From the NCBI RefSeq assembly GCF_900120165.1, contig NZ_LT635475.1, forward strand, positions 1,426,001 through 1,490,000: a DNA stretch of 64,000 nucleotides, given 5' to 3'. Each line of letters opens with the position of its first letter. The first letter of the stretch is position 1. This document shows positions 6,409-39,777 of the stretch, piece after piece. The notes beneath the pieces are model-generated. The model had not been told where the DNA came from and did not search any database. It worked only from the letters and a program-made list of their open reading frames with translations. The position numbers were made by a program, and so were the translations under genes. Origin of the DNA: Ezakiella massiliensis (GTDB lineage: Bacteria; Bacillota; Clostridia; Tissierellales; Peptoniphilaceae).

Positions 6409-6485
6409 GTGCTTGTAGCTCAGTTGGATAGAGCGGCGCCCTCCTAAGGCGTAGGTCGGGGGTTCGATTCCTCTCAAGCACGCCA
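6409..6485 (+). tRNA. tRNA-Arg (anticodon CCT)
   Basis: A full cloverleaf with encoded CCA. The acceptor arm GTGCTTG at 6409-6415 pairs with CAAGCAC at 6475-6481. The D arm is GCTC/GAGC, and the anticodon stem GCGCC/GGCGT encloses the loop CTCCTAA. The T arm has GGTTCGATTCC. Reading 34-36 as CCT gives the AGG codon. Confidence 0.95.
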
Positions 6486-6505
6486 TATTTTTATTAGCCT
6501 GGCAA

Positions 6506-6582
6506 GCGAATGTAGCTCAATTGGATAGAGCGTTCCCCTCCGACGGGAAAGGTTGGGGGTTCGATCCCTCTCATTCGCGCCA
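6506..6582 (+). tRNA. tRNA-Arg (anticodon CCG)
   Basis: The acceptor arm GCGAATG at 6506-6512 pairs with CATTCGC at 6572-6578, with encoded CCA. The anticodon stem TTCCC/GGGAA encloses CTCCGAC, so the anticodon is CCG (codon CGG). It is co-transcribed with the preceding tRNA-Arg, 20 bases upstream. The walR gene begins 60 bases further on. Confidence 0.94.
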
Positions 6583-29173: not shown

Positions 29174-30039
29174 AAAGCGGATTTGCAAATTTAATCGGCC
29201 GACCTAATGTTGGCAAGAGTTCGATTTTAAATAGATTAATTGGCGAGAAACTGGCAATCGTTACAAATAAGCCACAGACGACTCGGGTTCCCATGAAATT
29301 CATCTATACTGACGAGAGGATGCAGGTGGTGTTCTTTGACAACCCCGGCTACCAAAGGCCAAAGAATAAATTAAATCGAGTAATGAACGAAGAAATCCTA
29401 GCCAATTTAAAGGACGGGGACATAAATCTTTACGTGGTCGACAACTCCTTGGAGACTGGCCGCTTGGATTCAGATGTTTTTGAACTGGCAGCTGAGGATA
29501 AAACGCCCAAGGCTCTCCTTGTAAATAAATCCGACGAGCTTTCTCCAGAAGAAAAAGTCCTCTTGGACGAAAAATACCGAGACATGGGTATTTTTGACCG
29601 GGTGATTTTTATTTCTGCCTTGAGGGGAGATGGCTTTGACGAGCTCTTGGATTATGTTTATGAGACTTTAGACGAAGGCCCAAAATATTTCGACGACGAA
29701 TTTATTACAGATTTGCCTGTCCGCGATATTATGCGGGAGATTTTGAGGGAAAAATGCCTAATCCACTTGGACGAGGAAATTCCCCACGGGATTTATATCG
29801 ATATTGACGATTACGAAGAGACCGAAGACAAAATACGAGTCCGCTTCATTATGTATATAGAAAGGGACAGCCACAAGGCCATTGTAATTGGCAAAAACGG
29901 GTCTATGATTAATAAAATTATTAAAGATGCCGAAAAGGATATGACTCACTTTTGCGGCAAAAATGTTAAAATTAAAATCGATATAAAGACTAGAAAAAAT
30001 TGGCGAAAGGAAGACAGGCTTGTCTCGAGATGGTTTTAG
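29170..30039 (+). CDS. era: GTPase Era
   Basis: 289 residues. G1 is GRPNVGKSS, the switch region holds NKPQTTR, G3 is DNPG (DTPG in most Era), and G4 is VNKSD. The C-terminal KH domain includes VIGKNGSMINKIIKDAEKDM. Era binds the 3' end of 16S rRNA and assists 30S assembly. The DNPG in G3 is a mild deviation; everything else is standard. A GGAGGAAG site sets the start, inside the end of cdd. Confidence 0.95.
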   Translation: MKSGFANLIGRPNVGKSSILNRLIGEKLAIVTNKPQTTRVPMKFIYTDERMQVVFFDNPGYQRPKNKLNRVMNEEILANLKDGDINLYVVDNSLETGRLDSDVFELAAEDKTPKALLVNKSDELSPEEKVLLDEKYRDMGIFDRVIFISALRGDGFDELLDYVYETLDEGPKYFDDEFITDLPVRDIMREILREKCLIHLDEEIPHGIYIDIDDYEETEDKIRVRFIMYIERDSHKAIVIGKNGSMINKIIKDAEKDMTHFCGKNVKIKIDIKTRKNWRKEDRLVSRWF

Positions 30040-30738
30040 ATGAAGGTTGAAGGAATTGTTCTGAGGCTAATAAAATACAAGGAATCATCCGCTATTGCGA
30101 CAGTCCTTACAGACGACCTGGGCAAGATTTCCATAAACTGCCAAAGGATTTACAGGAACAAAAACTGGGTGGACCCACCGGCTCTTGAGACGATGAGCAT
30201 TACCAATTTTGTTTTAAGAGAGGGTCGGACTATTTATTATTTGGATGAGATTGAATCCACTGTCCGCATGGAGGCCATGGCCAGGGACCATAAAGTGTTT
30301 TTTGCCGGCCATATAGTGGCTGAAATCCTTTTAAAGTCTCTGGAAAATGAATATCAAGTGACTAACATTTATCCCCTAACTAAAACCTATTTGGAAAATC
30401 TGACAGAGGAAAACGCATATTATCTAACGGCGGCTTGGATTTTTAAATACCTGAGCCTACTTGGTTACAAGCCCTATATAAATATGGGCGAGGGCTCTCT
30501 TTACTTGAGCCAAAGCGGTATTGTCAGCCTGGATGAAATGGATTCGTCGGGGATGATTTTACCAGTCACGAGCCTAGACAGAGACATGGTGGTAAGGGCC
30601 ATGAATTCGCGTTTTGCAGACATAAAAGACACGGCTTATGACCTCTTGGACAAGGCAGTTTTTTATGCCCTCTTGAATTTGGATTTAAATAAAATTAATT
30701 CTTATGAATTACTTAAAAATTGGAGGTATTATGAATAA
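30040..30738 (+). CDS. recO: DNA repair protein RecO
   Basis: 232 residues. The N-terminal OB fold reads EGIVLRLIKYKESSAIATVLTDDLGK, a clear RecO start, followed by a helical domain. The usual C-terminal zinc-binding cysteines are absent, as in some other RecO proteins. RecO loads RecA on SSB-coated DNA. The gene directly abuts era and overlaps the following gene by eight bases. In most Firmicutes glyQ comes next or nearly next. Confidence 0.9.
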   Translation: MKVEGIVLRLIKYKESSAIATVLTDDLGKISINCQRIYRNKNWVDPPALETMSITNFVLREGRTIYYLDEIESTVRMEAMARDHKVFFAGHIVAEILLKSLENEYQVTNIYPLTKTYLENLTEENAYYLTAAWIFKYLSLLGYKPYINMGEGSLYLSQSGIVSLDEMDSSGMILPVTSLDRDMVVRAMNSRFADIKDTAYDLLDKAVFYALLNLDLNKINSYELLKNWRYYE

Positions 30739-31528
30739 TATCATTTCAAAAATTGTTGACTACTACAAAGCTTACGGGCAAATTAAATACATTTCCGTGC
30801 CAGAAATTATTCCTAGCGATATTTTGTCGGCTGAGGAGATTTTTGAGTACGCTTTTGGCGATAGCCATGTCATTGCAACCGAAGGGACTTACGCTGACCT
30901 TTACAACAATTCCAATACAAACGGAAAATATTTTTCCCATAAACTAAAAATTTATGCCAAGGAAGGAGATTTAAATGTCAAGGACCTGATTGCAAGCCTA
31001 AATGAATTGGGTTTGGATGATGAAAAATATTATATTTCCTATGAGACCAGGGAATATCAGGCCAGGTTTTCGAACTCTCTGATCGTTTCTACCATACTTA
31101 TTGTCAACTGCAAGGAAGTTGCCACTATTAATTATTCCAAGGCCATCAAGGGCGAGCAAACTCTGAATATTAATCAGATAGCCGAATATAATATTGACGC
31201 CATCAGGGAAATTTTGGGAGAAACTAATGAAGAAAAGCACTATGAAAATTCCCTGCACGCCGAGTACGAAAATTACATGGAAGACGACGGGACCTTGGAA
31301 AATCTTTATTTGATTATTGAAAGACATTTTTTGGATATTGAGATGCACAAGGAAAAGGCCAGGTACATCTTGGCTTACAATACTCTTCTTAAGGCCATTA
31401 TTCAAAATGAATACATCCGCATCAAGACGGGAACTTTTTCCGACAAGTACAAGGAAAATATAGAAAGCATAAATGCCAACTACAAGGATATAATTGGAAG
31501 TTTGATTGAAAAATACAGGGGAAATTAA
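30731..31528 (+). CDS. Degenerate glycyl-tRNA synthetase alpha-subunit homologue (GlyQ-like)
   Basis: 265 residues from ATG 30731 behind GGAGG. Comparison with remembered GlyQ sequences aligns it end to end: DYYKAYGQIKYISVP against the QDYWARQGC start, NVKDLIASLNELGLDDEKYY against IQELYLGSLKELGMDP, and AYNTLLKAIIQNEYI against the C-terminal [22 protein letters not shown]. The aminoacylation residues are gone. Motif 2 (RRPTDGRYGENPNR in GlyQ) is TYADLYNNSNTN here, and motif 3 (YGLERLAM) is YNIDAIREI. The reading frame is intact, has a good ribosome site, and sits at the canonical glyQ locus. It is presumably a pseudo-synthetase with a different role; that role is unknown. Confidence 0.72.
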   Translation: MNNIISKIVDYYKAYGQIKYISVPEIIPSDILSAEEIFEYAFGDSHVIATEGTYADLYNNSNTNGKYFSHKLKIYAKEGDLNVKDLIASLNELGLDDEKYYISYETREYQARFSNSLIVSTILIVNCKEVATINYSKAIKGEQTLNINQIAEYNIDAIREILGETNEEKHYENSLHAEYENYMEDDGTLENLYLIIERHFLDIEMHKEKARYILAYNTLLKAIIQNEYIRIKTGTFSDKYKENIESINANYKDIIGSLIEKYRGN

Positions 31529-33309
31529 TGGAGAAATTTGTTTTAGACGTTAGCATGGAGCCCATTCGAACTGAGTCTGTGGACTTGGTCGAGTATGAAA
31601 TTTTAGAAAAATTTCGCATCTGGCTCCTCAGTGAAAAAATTAAACAAAACGCCCTCCACGTCAGGGTTTTTAAAAATCGGGTCGTAGTCACAGCAAGTTT
31701 GGATACTTCGGCGGAATTTTTAAACGAAAATTTGGGCCAGGTCTTTGAAGCTATCAGGCAAAGTGACATTGACACCTTTAATGAATACCAGGCTTTTTAT
31801 AGGCCAATCCTAAACATAGTCGCCTTTTTTGGTGACAAAAAGCTGGACATAGAAATCGGCGACAAAAAATCTTCGGACCAAAACCTGATAAATTTTAGAG
31901 ACTATATAAAAATCGATTCGGCTGAAGATTATTTTGAAAAGATGAAGGCCTATCTTTACACTGATAAAAAAGAAGGCTACGAAAAAATGTCCACAGCCCT
32001 GAAAAAACGGGCCATGGCCAACGGCAAAAAGCTCATGCACGAAGACGAACGGGTGGAAGCCTTATCTGTGATTGACTCCAAGCTATCCATTGCTGAGGTT
32101 GAATTTGACGGGACCTATTTGGAACTGCCTGAGCCAATTATTGAAAGCGTCCTTCATAAGCACAATGTAATTTTTGCCATGTATTATTTGAACGGAGCCA
32201 TTTCCAATTCATATCTTATAGTTTACCGTGAGGGGACAGATCCTGGACCAGTCAAAAACAGCTTAAGTGAAATGATAAATGAAGAGCTAAAAAATATTTC
32301 TAGGCTCTTTAAAAAAGACACAGAAGAAACTTTGGATGCTTATTTGCCAAAGCTATCTTGGATTTCAGATATAGAAAGCCTGGGATCCATGAGCGATAAG
32401 ACCAAACGCCTGGAGTCCATTATCGGGTCTTTGGTCGACGAATTATCGCTGGCTGATGAGATGGAAGAAAATATAAAACTGGCCAGCAAATTTATGAAGG
32501 CAGACTTGGCAACCCAAACTGTTAAATGTTACGAAAATCTCCGTGGCATAGTGGGCGGGGAAATTTTTGAGGCAAACAGGGATAATTCCTCTGCAGCAAA
32601 TGCAATCAAAGAACAATACTTGCCTGATTTTACTGGTCGGGAGCCGGAGACCATTGGCGGTGCGGTTTTGGCCATAGCCGACAGGATGCACGACTTGGCA
32701 GGCCTAGAAATTTTGGGTGAGCTCAATATAAAATCTTCCTGGGCCTTCAAAGAAGCCTATGAGATTTTGAAGCTAATGATAAGCATCAAGCCAGAGCTTA
32801 GCCTGAGGGACTTGATTGAGAGCAGCCTTTACGCTTTTGCAGAAAATTCTGTGGGCGCCTTTGACTTTGATAAGGTTTTTAAATCTCTCTTTGAAATTTT
32901 TAAAGGGCAATTTAAATACACCCTCTACAAAAACAATATCAACAATATTTTCTATGAGGATATTTTAATTACAGAGGACAAGCCCATCAATAAATTGTTT
33001 ATGGATTTAAAAGATTTGTCGAGCATTGAAGATGAAGACCAGCTGAAATTTTTAAAAGACCTCATTGCTTACAAGAAGATGATTGGTGGAGCAAGTGATC
33101 CAGTAGATGGCGACTTTACAGAATCTGAATCGGATTTTTCGGATTTGATAAAATACGCAGGTGACAAGTCCAATGATGCTCTGGAATTTTTTAACCATCT
33201 TTACGAATACAAGGATAGATTTTACAAGCTCAAGGACTCTTATAAGGAGGCTGAAATCAGTAAATCCAGTCTGGTCCTTGCAGATAATTTAGAAGGGAGG
33301 TGGATATAG
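31528..33309 (+). CDS. Degenerate glycyl-tRNA synthetase beta-subunit homologue (GlyS-like)
   Basis: 593 residues, against about 690 for GlyS. The middle is clearly GlyS: LFKKDTEETLDAYLPKLSWI, then LGSMSDKTKRLESIIGSL, FMKADLATQTVKCYENLRGI, EQYLPDFTGREPETIGGAVL and IADRMHDLAGLEI align with the corresponding GlyS core. The N-terminal part aligns in pieces (YRPILNIVAFFGDKKLD), with a block corresponding to about GlyS 65-130 missing. The C-terminal tRNA-binding part is shortened and acidic. Start and stop overlap the alpha-like gene's stop and abut ppsR, exactly as glyS would. Probably a complex with the preceding product; function unknown. Confidence 0.75.
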   Translation: MEKFVLDVSMEPIRTESVDLVEYEILEKFRIWLLSEKIKQNALHVRVFKNRVVVTASLDTSAEFLNENLGQVFEAIRQSDIDTFNEYQAFYRPILNIVAFFGDKKLDIEIGDKKSSDQNLINFRDYIKIDSAEDYFEKMKAYLYTDKKEGYEKMSTALKKRAMANGKKLMHEDERVEALSVIDSKLSIAEVEFDGTYLELPEPIIESVLHKHNVIFAMYYLNGAISNSYLIVYREGTDPGPVKNSLSEMINEELKNISRLFKKDTEETLDAYLPKLSWISDIESLGSMSDKTKRLESIIGSLVDELSLADEMEENIKLASKFMKADLATQTVKCYENLRGIVGGEIFEANRDNSSAANAIKEQYLPDFTGREPETIGGAVLAIADRMHDLAGLEILGELNIKSSWAFKEAYEILKLMISIKPELSLRDLIESSLYAFAENSVGAFDFDKVFKSLFEIFKGQFKYTLYKNNINNIFYEDILITEDKPINKLFMDLKDLSSIEDEDQLKFLKDLIAYKKMIGGASDPVDGDFTESESDFSDLIKYAGDKSNDALEFFNHLYEYKDRFYKLKDSYKEAEISKSSLVLADNLEGRWI

Positions 33310-34128
33310 ATGTATGACATTACAGTTTTTGTCCTAAGCGACTCGGTTGGAGAAACGGGAACCAAACTTGCTCGCGCTTGTCTGGCCCAATTTCCCAATT
33401 GCAATTACGAAATCAAGAGATACCCATATATTTTATCCAAGGACCAAATCCTAGAGGCAATTGACGAGGCTAGGGACATCCCTTCGGTTATAATTTACAG
33501 TACGGTTATGACTGACCACCAGGATTTTATCGAGCACCAGGCCAAGAAGCTTGGCATACCTACAATTGATATAATGAAAAAACCCCTCACTGCAATTTCA
33601 AAAATTCTCCACGATAATCCAGTAAGAGAATCGGGAATTTTGAGGAAGATGGACGAAAAATATTTCCAAACTGTAAATGCAGTTGAGTTTGCAGTTAAGT
33701 ATGACGACGGCAAGGATCCAAGAGGTGTATTAAAGGCGGACATTTGCTTGGTTGGCATCAGCCGGACTAGTAAAACTCCCCTTAGCATGTACTTGGCCAA
33801 CAAGGGTTACTATGTGGCAAATGTGCCCCTGGTTCCTGAAGTTCCCCTTGCTCGCGAGCTTTATGAAAAAGATAAGAGACGAGTCTTTGGCTTGGAGACA
33901 AATGTGGAATCCATGATGAAGATCAGGGCCGAGAGGCTACTTGCCCTTGGACTTCCAGCAAACTCCATGTACTCAGAGACCGACAGAATTGAAAAAGAAA
34001 TTGAATATTCCAAAAAAGTTATGGATGAGCTGGGCTGCACAGTTATTGACGTGTCCAACAAGGCCATAGAAGAGACAGCCGAAATTATTCTTGAAACCAT
34101 GGAAGCGAGGTTTGGTATTCGTGACTAA
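33310..34128 (+). CDS. ppsR: Pyruvate,phosphate dikinase regulatory protein (DUF299)
   Basis: 272 residues. DUF299 proteins are bifunctional kinase/phosphorylases that switch PPDK or PEP synthase on and off using ADP. Motifs: VFVLSDSVGETGTKLARA at the N-terminus and the P-loop-like LVGISRTSKTPLSMYLAN near the middle, with KVPNVPLVPEV-type VANVPLVPEVPLARELY following. The nearby gly locus and dnaG-rpoD give the usual Firmicute context (yqfL). Its presence implies PPDK elsewhere in the genome. Confidence 0.93.
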   Translation: MYDITVFVLSDSVGETGTKLARACLAQFPNCNYEIKRYPYILSKDQILEAIDEARDIPSVIIYSTVMTDHQDFIEHQAKKLGIPTIDIMKKPLTAISKILHDNPVRESGILRKMDEKYFQTVNAVEFAVKYDDGKDPRGVLKADICLVGISRTSKTPLSMYLANKGYYVANVPLVPEVPLARELYEKDKRRVFGLETNVESMMKIRAERLLALGLPANSMYSETDRIEKEIEYSKKVMDELGCTVIDVSNKAIEETAEIILETMEARFGIRD

Positions 34129-39418: not shown

Positions 39419-39424
39419 AAAAAT

Positions 39425-39748
39425 GTAAATCAGACAGTTGCTATTTATAGAGGAAAGTCCGTGCTCCACAGAGCGAGGGTGCCGGGTAACACCCGGTGGT
39501 GGCGACACTAAGGACAGTGCAACAGAGAGATACCGCCGCTTATGCGGTAAGGGTGGAAAGGCGAGGTAAGAGCTCACCAGCGATTAGGCGACTAATCGGC
39601 TATGCAAACCCCATCCGGAGCAAAACTGAAGCGACACAAAATTGCCGCTGCTCGTGGCAAGTCGAGAATGGTAGGTTGCTAGAGGTATTAGGTAACTAAT
39701 ATCCAAGACAGATAACTGTCTAATACAGAACACGGCTTATAGATTTAC
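39425..39748 (+). ncRNA. rnpB: RNase P RNA
   Basis: 324 bases. P1 is GTAAATC (39425-39431) with GATTTAC (39742-39748). Universally conserved parts are visible: GAGGAAAGTCCGTGCTCCAC near the 5' end, the ATGCAAACCCC region in the middle, and ACAGAACACGGCTTATAG before the 3' P1 strand. This is the catalytic RNA that removes 5' leaders from tRNA precursors. The plan looks like bacterial type A rather than the Bacillus type B, but I have not folded it fully. Confidence 0.95.
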
Positions 39749-39754
39749 CGAGAG

Positions 39755-39777
39755 AGGACCCGTAGGGTCCTTTTTTG
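39755..39777 (+). terminator. Terminator of rnpB
   Basis: AGGACCC (39755-39761), loop GTA, GGGTCCT (39765-39771), then a T run. It directly follows the 3' end of the RNA. Confidence 0.92.

Follow-up and report, generated by a model that had tools for sequence, protein, structure and literature searches.

A GlyQ- and GlyS-derived gene pair between recO and ppsR

The window analyzed here is a 64,000-nucleotide stretch of the Ezakiella massiliensis genome (1.74 Mb, one contig; NZ_LT635475.1, positions 1,426,001 to 1,490,000). Between recO and ppsR it carries two intact and overlapping open reading frames (ORFs), here called the alpha-like and beta-like genes (Table 1), which are diverged remnants of GlyQ and GlyS, the alpha and beta subunits of alpha2beta2 glycyl-tRNA synthetase (GlyRS). 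A preliminary description of this DNA had placed two intact genes at the glyQS position, and the ORFs, their overlap and their ribosome sites read as it stated. In 17 of 20 canonical loci of the family Peptoniphilaceae the genes could be read directly as recO-glyQ-glyS-ppsR (in the other three, one gene was undetected or the contig end was reached), which places the Ezakiella pair at the ancestral glyQS site. The recO-remnant-ppsR order is kept across the remnant loci read, and the remnant genes overlap their neighbors or are separated from them by no more than 14 bases. Neither the pair nor the region upstream of the single-chain GlyRS gene holds a T-box or other Rfam element at the gathering score in the four sources searched.

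PF02091 does not match the window's alpha-like protein when this is searched alone. That family is listed for all six alpha-like relatives scanned (2e-15, 3.5e-9, 3.9e-4, 0.0063, 0.013 and 0.073), two of which (2e-15 and 3.5e-9) pass the curated cut-off. A profile-profile comparison of nine alpha-like with nine family GlyQ proteins gives 96% probability (E 4.8e-9, 257 columns), and the alpha-like profile recovers the GlyQ genes of 24 other genomes (E 3e-12 to 8e-6). Structurally, the AlphaFold2 model (predicted local distance difference test score, pLDDT, 79) finds its best PDB matches in GlyQ structures (1j5w, template modeling score 0.74, E 3e-12). Profiles, structure match and locus order together establish common descent and a common fold with GlyQ. 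The catalytic residues tell of loss. In an alignment of ten alpha-like rows with E. coli GlyQ and eight family GlyQ proteins, motif 2 (RRPTDGRYGENPNR) is lost from every alpha-like row, as are R64, R76, E134 and the motif 3 arginine R169; R63 is gone from nine rows and kept in one, and R277 is kept in one. The tRNA CCA-end contacts W121, E122, Q150, N256 and R269 are missing from the ten rows. The absence of class II motifs 2 and 3, noted in the preliminary description from one protein, thus extends to all ten rows and is joined by the loss of residues of the ATP/glycine pocket.

The beta-like protein is recognized directly as a GlyS derivative: PF02092 matches it at 2e-50, and its AlphaFold2 model (pLDDT 89) has GlyRS beta structures as its best PDB matches. 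It falls below the equivalog level of TIGR00211, scoring 181 bits against a cut-off of 300, and four other shortened GlyS rows score 193-214 bits; the row of genus g20 reaches 317.5 bits. This g20 remnant (locus L090, genome G072) is less worn, GlyQ was not found in its genome, and it perhaps represents an earlier stage of the same wearing-down process. The window protein is 98% identical to its E. peruensis counterpart; four other records, of which three carry the name Ezakiella, are 30-35% identical to it. Chance or misalignment as the source of the GlyQ and GlyS likeness is ruled out by the profile, reverse-profile and structure matches.

What the beta-like protein lacks is largely what binds tRNA. 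The N-terminal block of about 65 residues whose absence the preliminary description pointed out corresponds to the B2 domain (E. coli residues 65-125), which lies at the tRNA elbow. In E. coli GlyS the H18-19 loop reads the acceptor stem and U73, and Thr406 and Gln409 lie at the CCA end (PMC9908026, PMC8464048). The window protein lacks the H18-19 loop, Thr406, Gln409 and all six mapped anticodon contacts. Across the shortened GlyS rows, retention at 17 mapped tRNA-contact positions ranges from 0 to 0.53 with a mean of about 0.12, and a lineage-weighted count of ten of these positions gives a mean of 0.14. The contacts that survive are scattered: Arg481/Arg482 in four beta-only rows (Miniphocaeibacter/Mediannikoviicoccus), Arg585 and Asn588 in the E. 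coagulans row, and Phe652 in the g20 row. Judged from these sequence losses, the pair has probably ceased to charge tRNA.

Both genes are nevertheless maintained. The ratio of nonsynonymous to synonymous substitution rates (dN/dS; Nei-Gojobori, window genes against E. peruensis) is 0.032 for the alpha-like and 0.029 for the beta-like gene, in line with the earlier statement that the pair is constrained, and it falls to 0.009 in the HD part of the beta-like gene (1 nonsynonymous and 27 synonymous changes). Neighboring genes give 0.017 (era), 0.032 (ppsR) and 0.115 (cdd), and recO shows no difference at all. A 1054-base stretch (window 30018-31072), which spans recO and runs into the alpha-like gene, is identical to the E. 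peruensis locus (L083), so the alpha-like value rests on the later part of the gene. Most 300-base steps outside this stretch differ from E. peruensis by about 2-9%, and the stretch is probably a recent recombination tract. The beta-like gene has no internal stops in any of six Ezakiella genomes, and the alpha-like gene is likewise present in all six. A decaying pseudogene is ruled out by the dN/dS values and the intact frames.

Distribution of the remnants and number of origins

The preliminary description had expected glycyl-tRNA to be made by a single-chain GlyRS, and the Ezakiella genome does encode a complete one elsewhere (461 residues; TIGR00389 538.7 bits, cut-off 243.3); the absence of any other GlyRS in the genome is thereby ruled out. 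A profile search found no PF02091 match and no second PF02092 gene in the genome. With GlyQ/GlyS profile matches, motifs that remain lost after alignment and another GlyRS present, the points on which that description could have failed all fall in its favor.

Within the family (130 genomes, 39 genera; canonical GlyQ/GlyS taken as >400 bits), canonical GlyQ and GlyS occur in 105 genomes and a single-chain GlyRS over the cut-off in 22, with no genome carrying both; three incomplete genomes (G063, G076, G080) have neither. Shortened, low-scoring GlyS proteins occur in 15 genomes, 14 of them among the 22 with single-chain GlyRS. They are found in Ezakiella (6/6 genomes), g6 (2/2), g20 (1/1), Miniphocaeibacter (g30, 3/3), Mediannikoviicoccus (g28, 2/3, the third genome being 65% complete) and g24 (1/1; G076, fragmented and 81% complete, where single-chain GlyRS was not found). 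The occurrence of GlyS remnants in five genera besides Ezakiella goes beyond the preliminary description. No GlyS remnant was found in g34 (0/6, with single-chain GlyRS) or g23 (0/1, 68% complete); in these two genera ppsR lies beside ppdK, recognized by eye, in 7/7 loci. The g24 genome has two ppsR genes, one following the GlyS remnant (L091) and the other (L103) beside a ppdK-like gene, again recognized by eye.

The alpha-like gene is limited to Ezakiella. In the beta-only genera neither PF02091 nor the alpha-like profile matches anything in the genomes, the latter being built from Ezakiella-type rows, so that it could overlook a strongly diverged alpha located away from the locus. GlyQ is gone from the four of the five further genera with a readable upstream gene. 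All seven covered beta-only loci (g6 two, g20 one, g28 two, g30 two) have the gene at the recO place directly upstream, with no room for an alpha gene; this gene is named recO by blastp in five loci, and of two such genes tested with TIGR00613 the g6 gene is RecO.

At the level of the class, an even draw from a larger set gave 393 genomes with a completeness of at least 90%. PF02092 is present in 44 of them; 39 score >650 bits, and the five low scorers all belong to Peptoniphilaceae. Of 59 class genomes searched for single-chain GlyRS, 51 have it over the cut-off and the other eight all have high-scoring PF02092. Outside the remnant cases, the two GlyRS systems are all-or-none in these samples. 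In four genomes (G051, G043, G085, G119) canonical GlyS frames are interrupted by several stops, which are probably assembly or sequencing errors because no single-chain GlyRS passes the cut-off there.

The remnants likely reflect at least two losses of charging. In a tree of seven neighboring proteins (34 rows), Ezakiella stands next to g5, a genus with canonical GlyQS (support 98), and g6, Mediannikoviicoccus and Miniphocaeibacter group with g34 elsewhere (97); the position of g20 is poorly supported (40). On a quick species tree, joining all remnant genomes in one clade is rejected (approximately unbiased test, p-AU 8.6e-6), which favors more than one retention, and so is joining all single-chain GlyRS genomes (p-AU 7.5e-7). 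Two results pull the other way and leave room for one origin: all 11 tested remnants fall together in the beta gene tree (support 78/95, not starred, on very long branches), and the test does not reject a single clade for the single-chain GlyRS proteins of the family (p-AU 0.188). The beta gene tree gives no evidence for several origins, and its long branches weaken it in either direction.

Retention of the HD cavity in shortened GlyS

Of all parts of GlyS, the HD domain and the cavity in it have lasted best, a point absent from the preliminary description. The HD cavity of canonical GlyRS is formed by Lys364, Arg367, Lys394, Tyr434, Asp456, Lys457 and Asp459 (PMC8464048). Mapping 16 canonical and 15 shortened GlyS rows to E. 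coli numbering (the g24 fragment was not counted) shows R367, K394 and D456 kept in 15/15 shortened rows, K364 in 14/15 and Y434 in 13/15. Retention was tested on 14 rows with three lineages weighted equally, E. peruensis being left out as a near copy, and polar near-invariant columns were those of D, E, K, R, H, N, Q, Y or W. The cavity has a mean retention of 0.85 against 0.32 in the other 39 such columns (permutation p 6e-5), and the excess persists within the 17 polar HD columns (p 0.003) and, unweighted, within all 47 near-invariant HD columns (p 0.006). The eight best-kept polar columns are five cavity residues plus D396, Y205 and R53. By domain, near-invariant columns are retained at 0.55 in HD, 0.31 in B1, 0.30 in B3, 0.18 in the anticodon-binding domain and 0.01 in B2. 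Ezakiella (seven rows) and the Miniphocaeibacter/Mediannikoviicoccus/g6 lineage (six rows) share ten fully kept columns against 4.6 expected (p 0.003), and all ten lie in the HD domain.

The Gln409 column is basic in all 15 shortened rows. Among the 14 rows used for the column test it has become Lys, Arg or His in 14/14, and it is the sole column turned basic in at least 90% of them; column 564 has become Leu in nearly all. Gln409 of E. coli GlyRS contacts tRNA C74 (PMC9908026). It would therefore adjoin the HD cavity, which contacts U73 and C74 in the published accounts.

The HD region of the beta-like model retains an HD fold and matches HD-fold proteins: PgpH (c-di-AMP), HD-GYP, RelH/Mesh1 and the tRNA processing enzyme 3wfr, which we take to be the CCA-adding enzyme. 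Unlike the HD-superfamily hydrolases, shortened GlyS lacks the catalytic, metal-binding His-Asp doublet. Positions 393-394 read MK, VK, LK, CK, AK or SK, so in every row Lys comes after a small or hydrophobic residue, and the doublet is equally absent from canonical GlyS; metal-dependent hydrolysis is therefore not expected. The cavity is described as strongly conserved, of unsettled role and a proposed antibiotic target (PMC8464048, PMC9908026).

Table 1. Coordinates of the pair, its neighbors and the mapped residues in the window
Feature	Position	Strand	Remark
recO	30040..30738	+	upstream neighbor; likewise upstream in canonical and beta-only loci read
Ribosome site ggaggt of alpha-like gene	30722-30727	+	
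Alpha-like gene (GlyQ remnant, 265 aa)	30731..31528	+	class II-like fold kept, motif 2/3 residues lost
Motif 2 place in alpha-like protein (~residues 50-66)	30878..30928, limits approximate	+	GlyQ RRPTDGRYGENPNR replaced by unrelated residues (alignment with E. coli and family GlyQ)
Motif 3 place in alpha-like protein (residues 152-159)	31184..31207	+	TYGLER to EYNIDA, Arg lost
Beta-like gene (GlyS remnant, 593 aa)	31528..33309	+	without B2 domain, C-terminal part shortened
HD domain of beta-like protein (residues 268-470)	32329..32937	+	strongest constraint, dN/dS 0.009
HD cavity K291 and R294 (E. coli Lys364, Arg367)	32398..32409	+	
HD cavity K324 (E. coli Lys394)	32497..32499	+	at the HD-hydrolase doublet place
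R339 (at place of E. coli Gln409, contacting tRNA C74)	32542..32544	+	basic in every shortened GlyS row read
HD cavity Y364 (E. coli Tyr434)	32617..32619	+	
HD cavity D385, R386, H388 (E. coli Asp456, Lys457, Asp459)	32680..32691	+	D385 in all rows; R386 and H388 positions vary
ppsR (PF03618)	33310..34128	+	downstream neighbor, start directly after beta-like stop codon

Elsewhere in the window lie a class A RNase P RNA (39422-39755, + strand) and two tandem tRNA-Arg genes (CCT, CCG; 6409-6582, + strand).

Possible functions of the retained subunits

The reading we favor, with moderate confidence, is that the pair is an alpha/beta GlyRS that retired from charging after a single-chain GlyRS took over, its subunits being kept for a second function based on the HD cavity. 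The cavity would probably bind a phosphate-bearing ligand, either a free nucleotide or an RNA 3' end, and the basic residue replacing Gln409 beside it could help to hold that ligand. In Ezakiella the dead alpha domain may serve as a structural partner of beta. The remnant would then act as a binding or regulatory protein and not as a metal-dependent HD hydrolase. More tentatively, and with less confidence than its opposite, the GlyS HD cavity may have a function independent of charging in alpha/beta GlyRS generally; the switched lineages would have been able to give up the synthetase but not this function, and would have independently stripped the enzyme to it, leaving beta alone or, in Ezakiella, a dead pair.

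Compared with canonical alpha2beta2 GlyRS (GlyQ/GlyS; PF02091, PF02092; E. coli structures 7EIV and 7YSE), the remnants share the locus, the folds and most HD cavity residues. They differ in having lost class II motifs 2 and 3, B2, the tRNA-recognition loop and most anticodon contacts, in the lack of a detectable alpha outside Ezakiella and, g20 excepted, in scoring below the TIGR00211 cut-off. Synthetase-like proteins that do not charge tRNA and have other roles are known already. Examples with a class II fold are HisZ, which serves HisG as its regulatory subunit, and the accessory subunit of the mitochondrial DNA polymerase gamma. Those proteins derive from HisRS or single-chain-type synthetases, whereas here both alpha/beta GlyRS subunits, or beta alone, stay at the ancestral locus after the enzyme was replaced. 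A literature search covering few subscription journals returned no account of a retained dead GlyQ/GlyS pair or an orphan GlyS.

Several observations weigh against the favored reading. In the alpha pocket, E141 is still present in six of the ten alpha-like rows. K364 is changed in one beta-only row and Y434 in two, D459 is kept in 9/15 rows and K457 in 7/15 (Arg in the other eight), so that two of the seven cavity residues are poorly kept. G359, D396, T399, the T408 column, G410, P436 and P444, all HD residues outside the cavity, are kept as well. The absence of a remnant from g34 implies a function that is dispensable or was replaced there. The E. coli HD domain is reported not to bind c-di-GMP, cAMP, cGMP or ppGpp (PMC8464048). 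The cavity residues may be kept for folding. An alternative built on this, in which they hold the HD fold and the retained function lies elsewhere, for example in a beta surface for RecO, PpsR, single-chain GlyRS or another partner, has a minor but real chance of being right; it gains from the kept non-cavity residues and from the constant recO and ppsR neighbors in the remnant loci read. It accounts less well for the weaker retention of polar residues outside the cavity. Also against it, mutants of some cavity residues of E. coli GlyRS keep glycine activation, although this step does not test the HD fold (PMC8464048). Slightly less probable still is a role as a charging sensor or tRNA chaperone, in which the pair would bind tRNA-Gly or its charged form but not charge it. 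The E. coli cavity adjoins U73 and C74 of bound tRNA, its mutants impair the tRNA step (PMC9908026, PMC8464048), and the surviving Arg481/Arg482, Arg585 and Asn588 fit tRNA binding; against it stands the loss of B2, of the H18-19 loop motif, of Thr406 and Gln409 and of most anticodon contacts. The repurposing proposed in the preliminary description is probable in general, and its specific example of tRNA-Gly binding or charge sensing is less supported, with B2 absent and contact retention so low. Non-specific binding of an RNA 3' end may still apply.

Two further explanations appear very improbable. The remnant could be a slowly decaying relic whose use is to link recO with ppsR in translation or transcription, as the short gaps and overlaps would allow and as the ppdK neighbor of ppsR in g34 and g23, where no remnant was found, might suggest; the low dN/dS over both proteins, and above all over the HD domain, the uninterrupted Ezakiella frames and the residue-specific retention speak against it. 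A ligase that is still active but has altered its chemistry, so that it charges a different tRNA or modifies some protein, is just as hard to credit. The class II-like fold survives, as do E141 of the alpha pocket in 6/10 alpha-like rows and D67 in 2/10, and class II relatives such as EpmA have switched substrate, but the four arginine and glutamate positions lost from every alpha-like row, with R63 lost from nine, and the failure to find alpha in the beta-only genera argue against catalysis.

The orphan remnants also bear on annotation. Those of Mediannikoviicoccus vaginalis (P0075, G084), Miniphocaeibacter massiliensis (P0079, G088) and M. halophilus (P0080, G087) are labeled glycine--tRNA ligase subunit beta in NCBI/UniProt, and GlyQ was not found in their genomes; such a label would mislead metabolic reconstruction. 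If the cavity does have a charging-independent function in alpha/beta GlyRS generally, the remnants are natural separation-of-function mutants able to reveal its ligand. Since they keep most of the cavity without the synthetase, its ligand and role are open to study free of the charging reaction.

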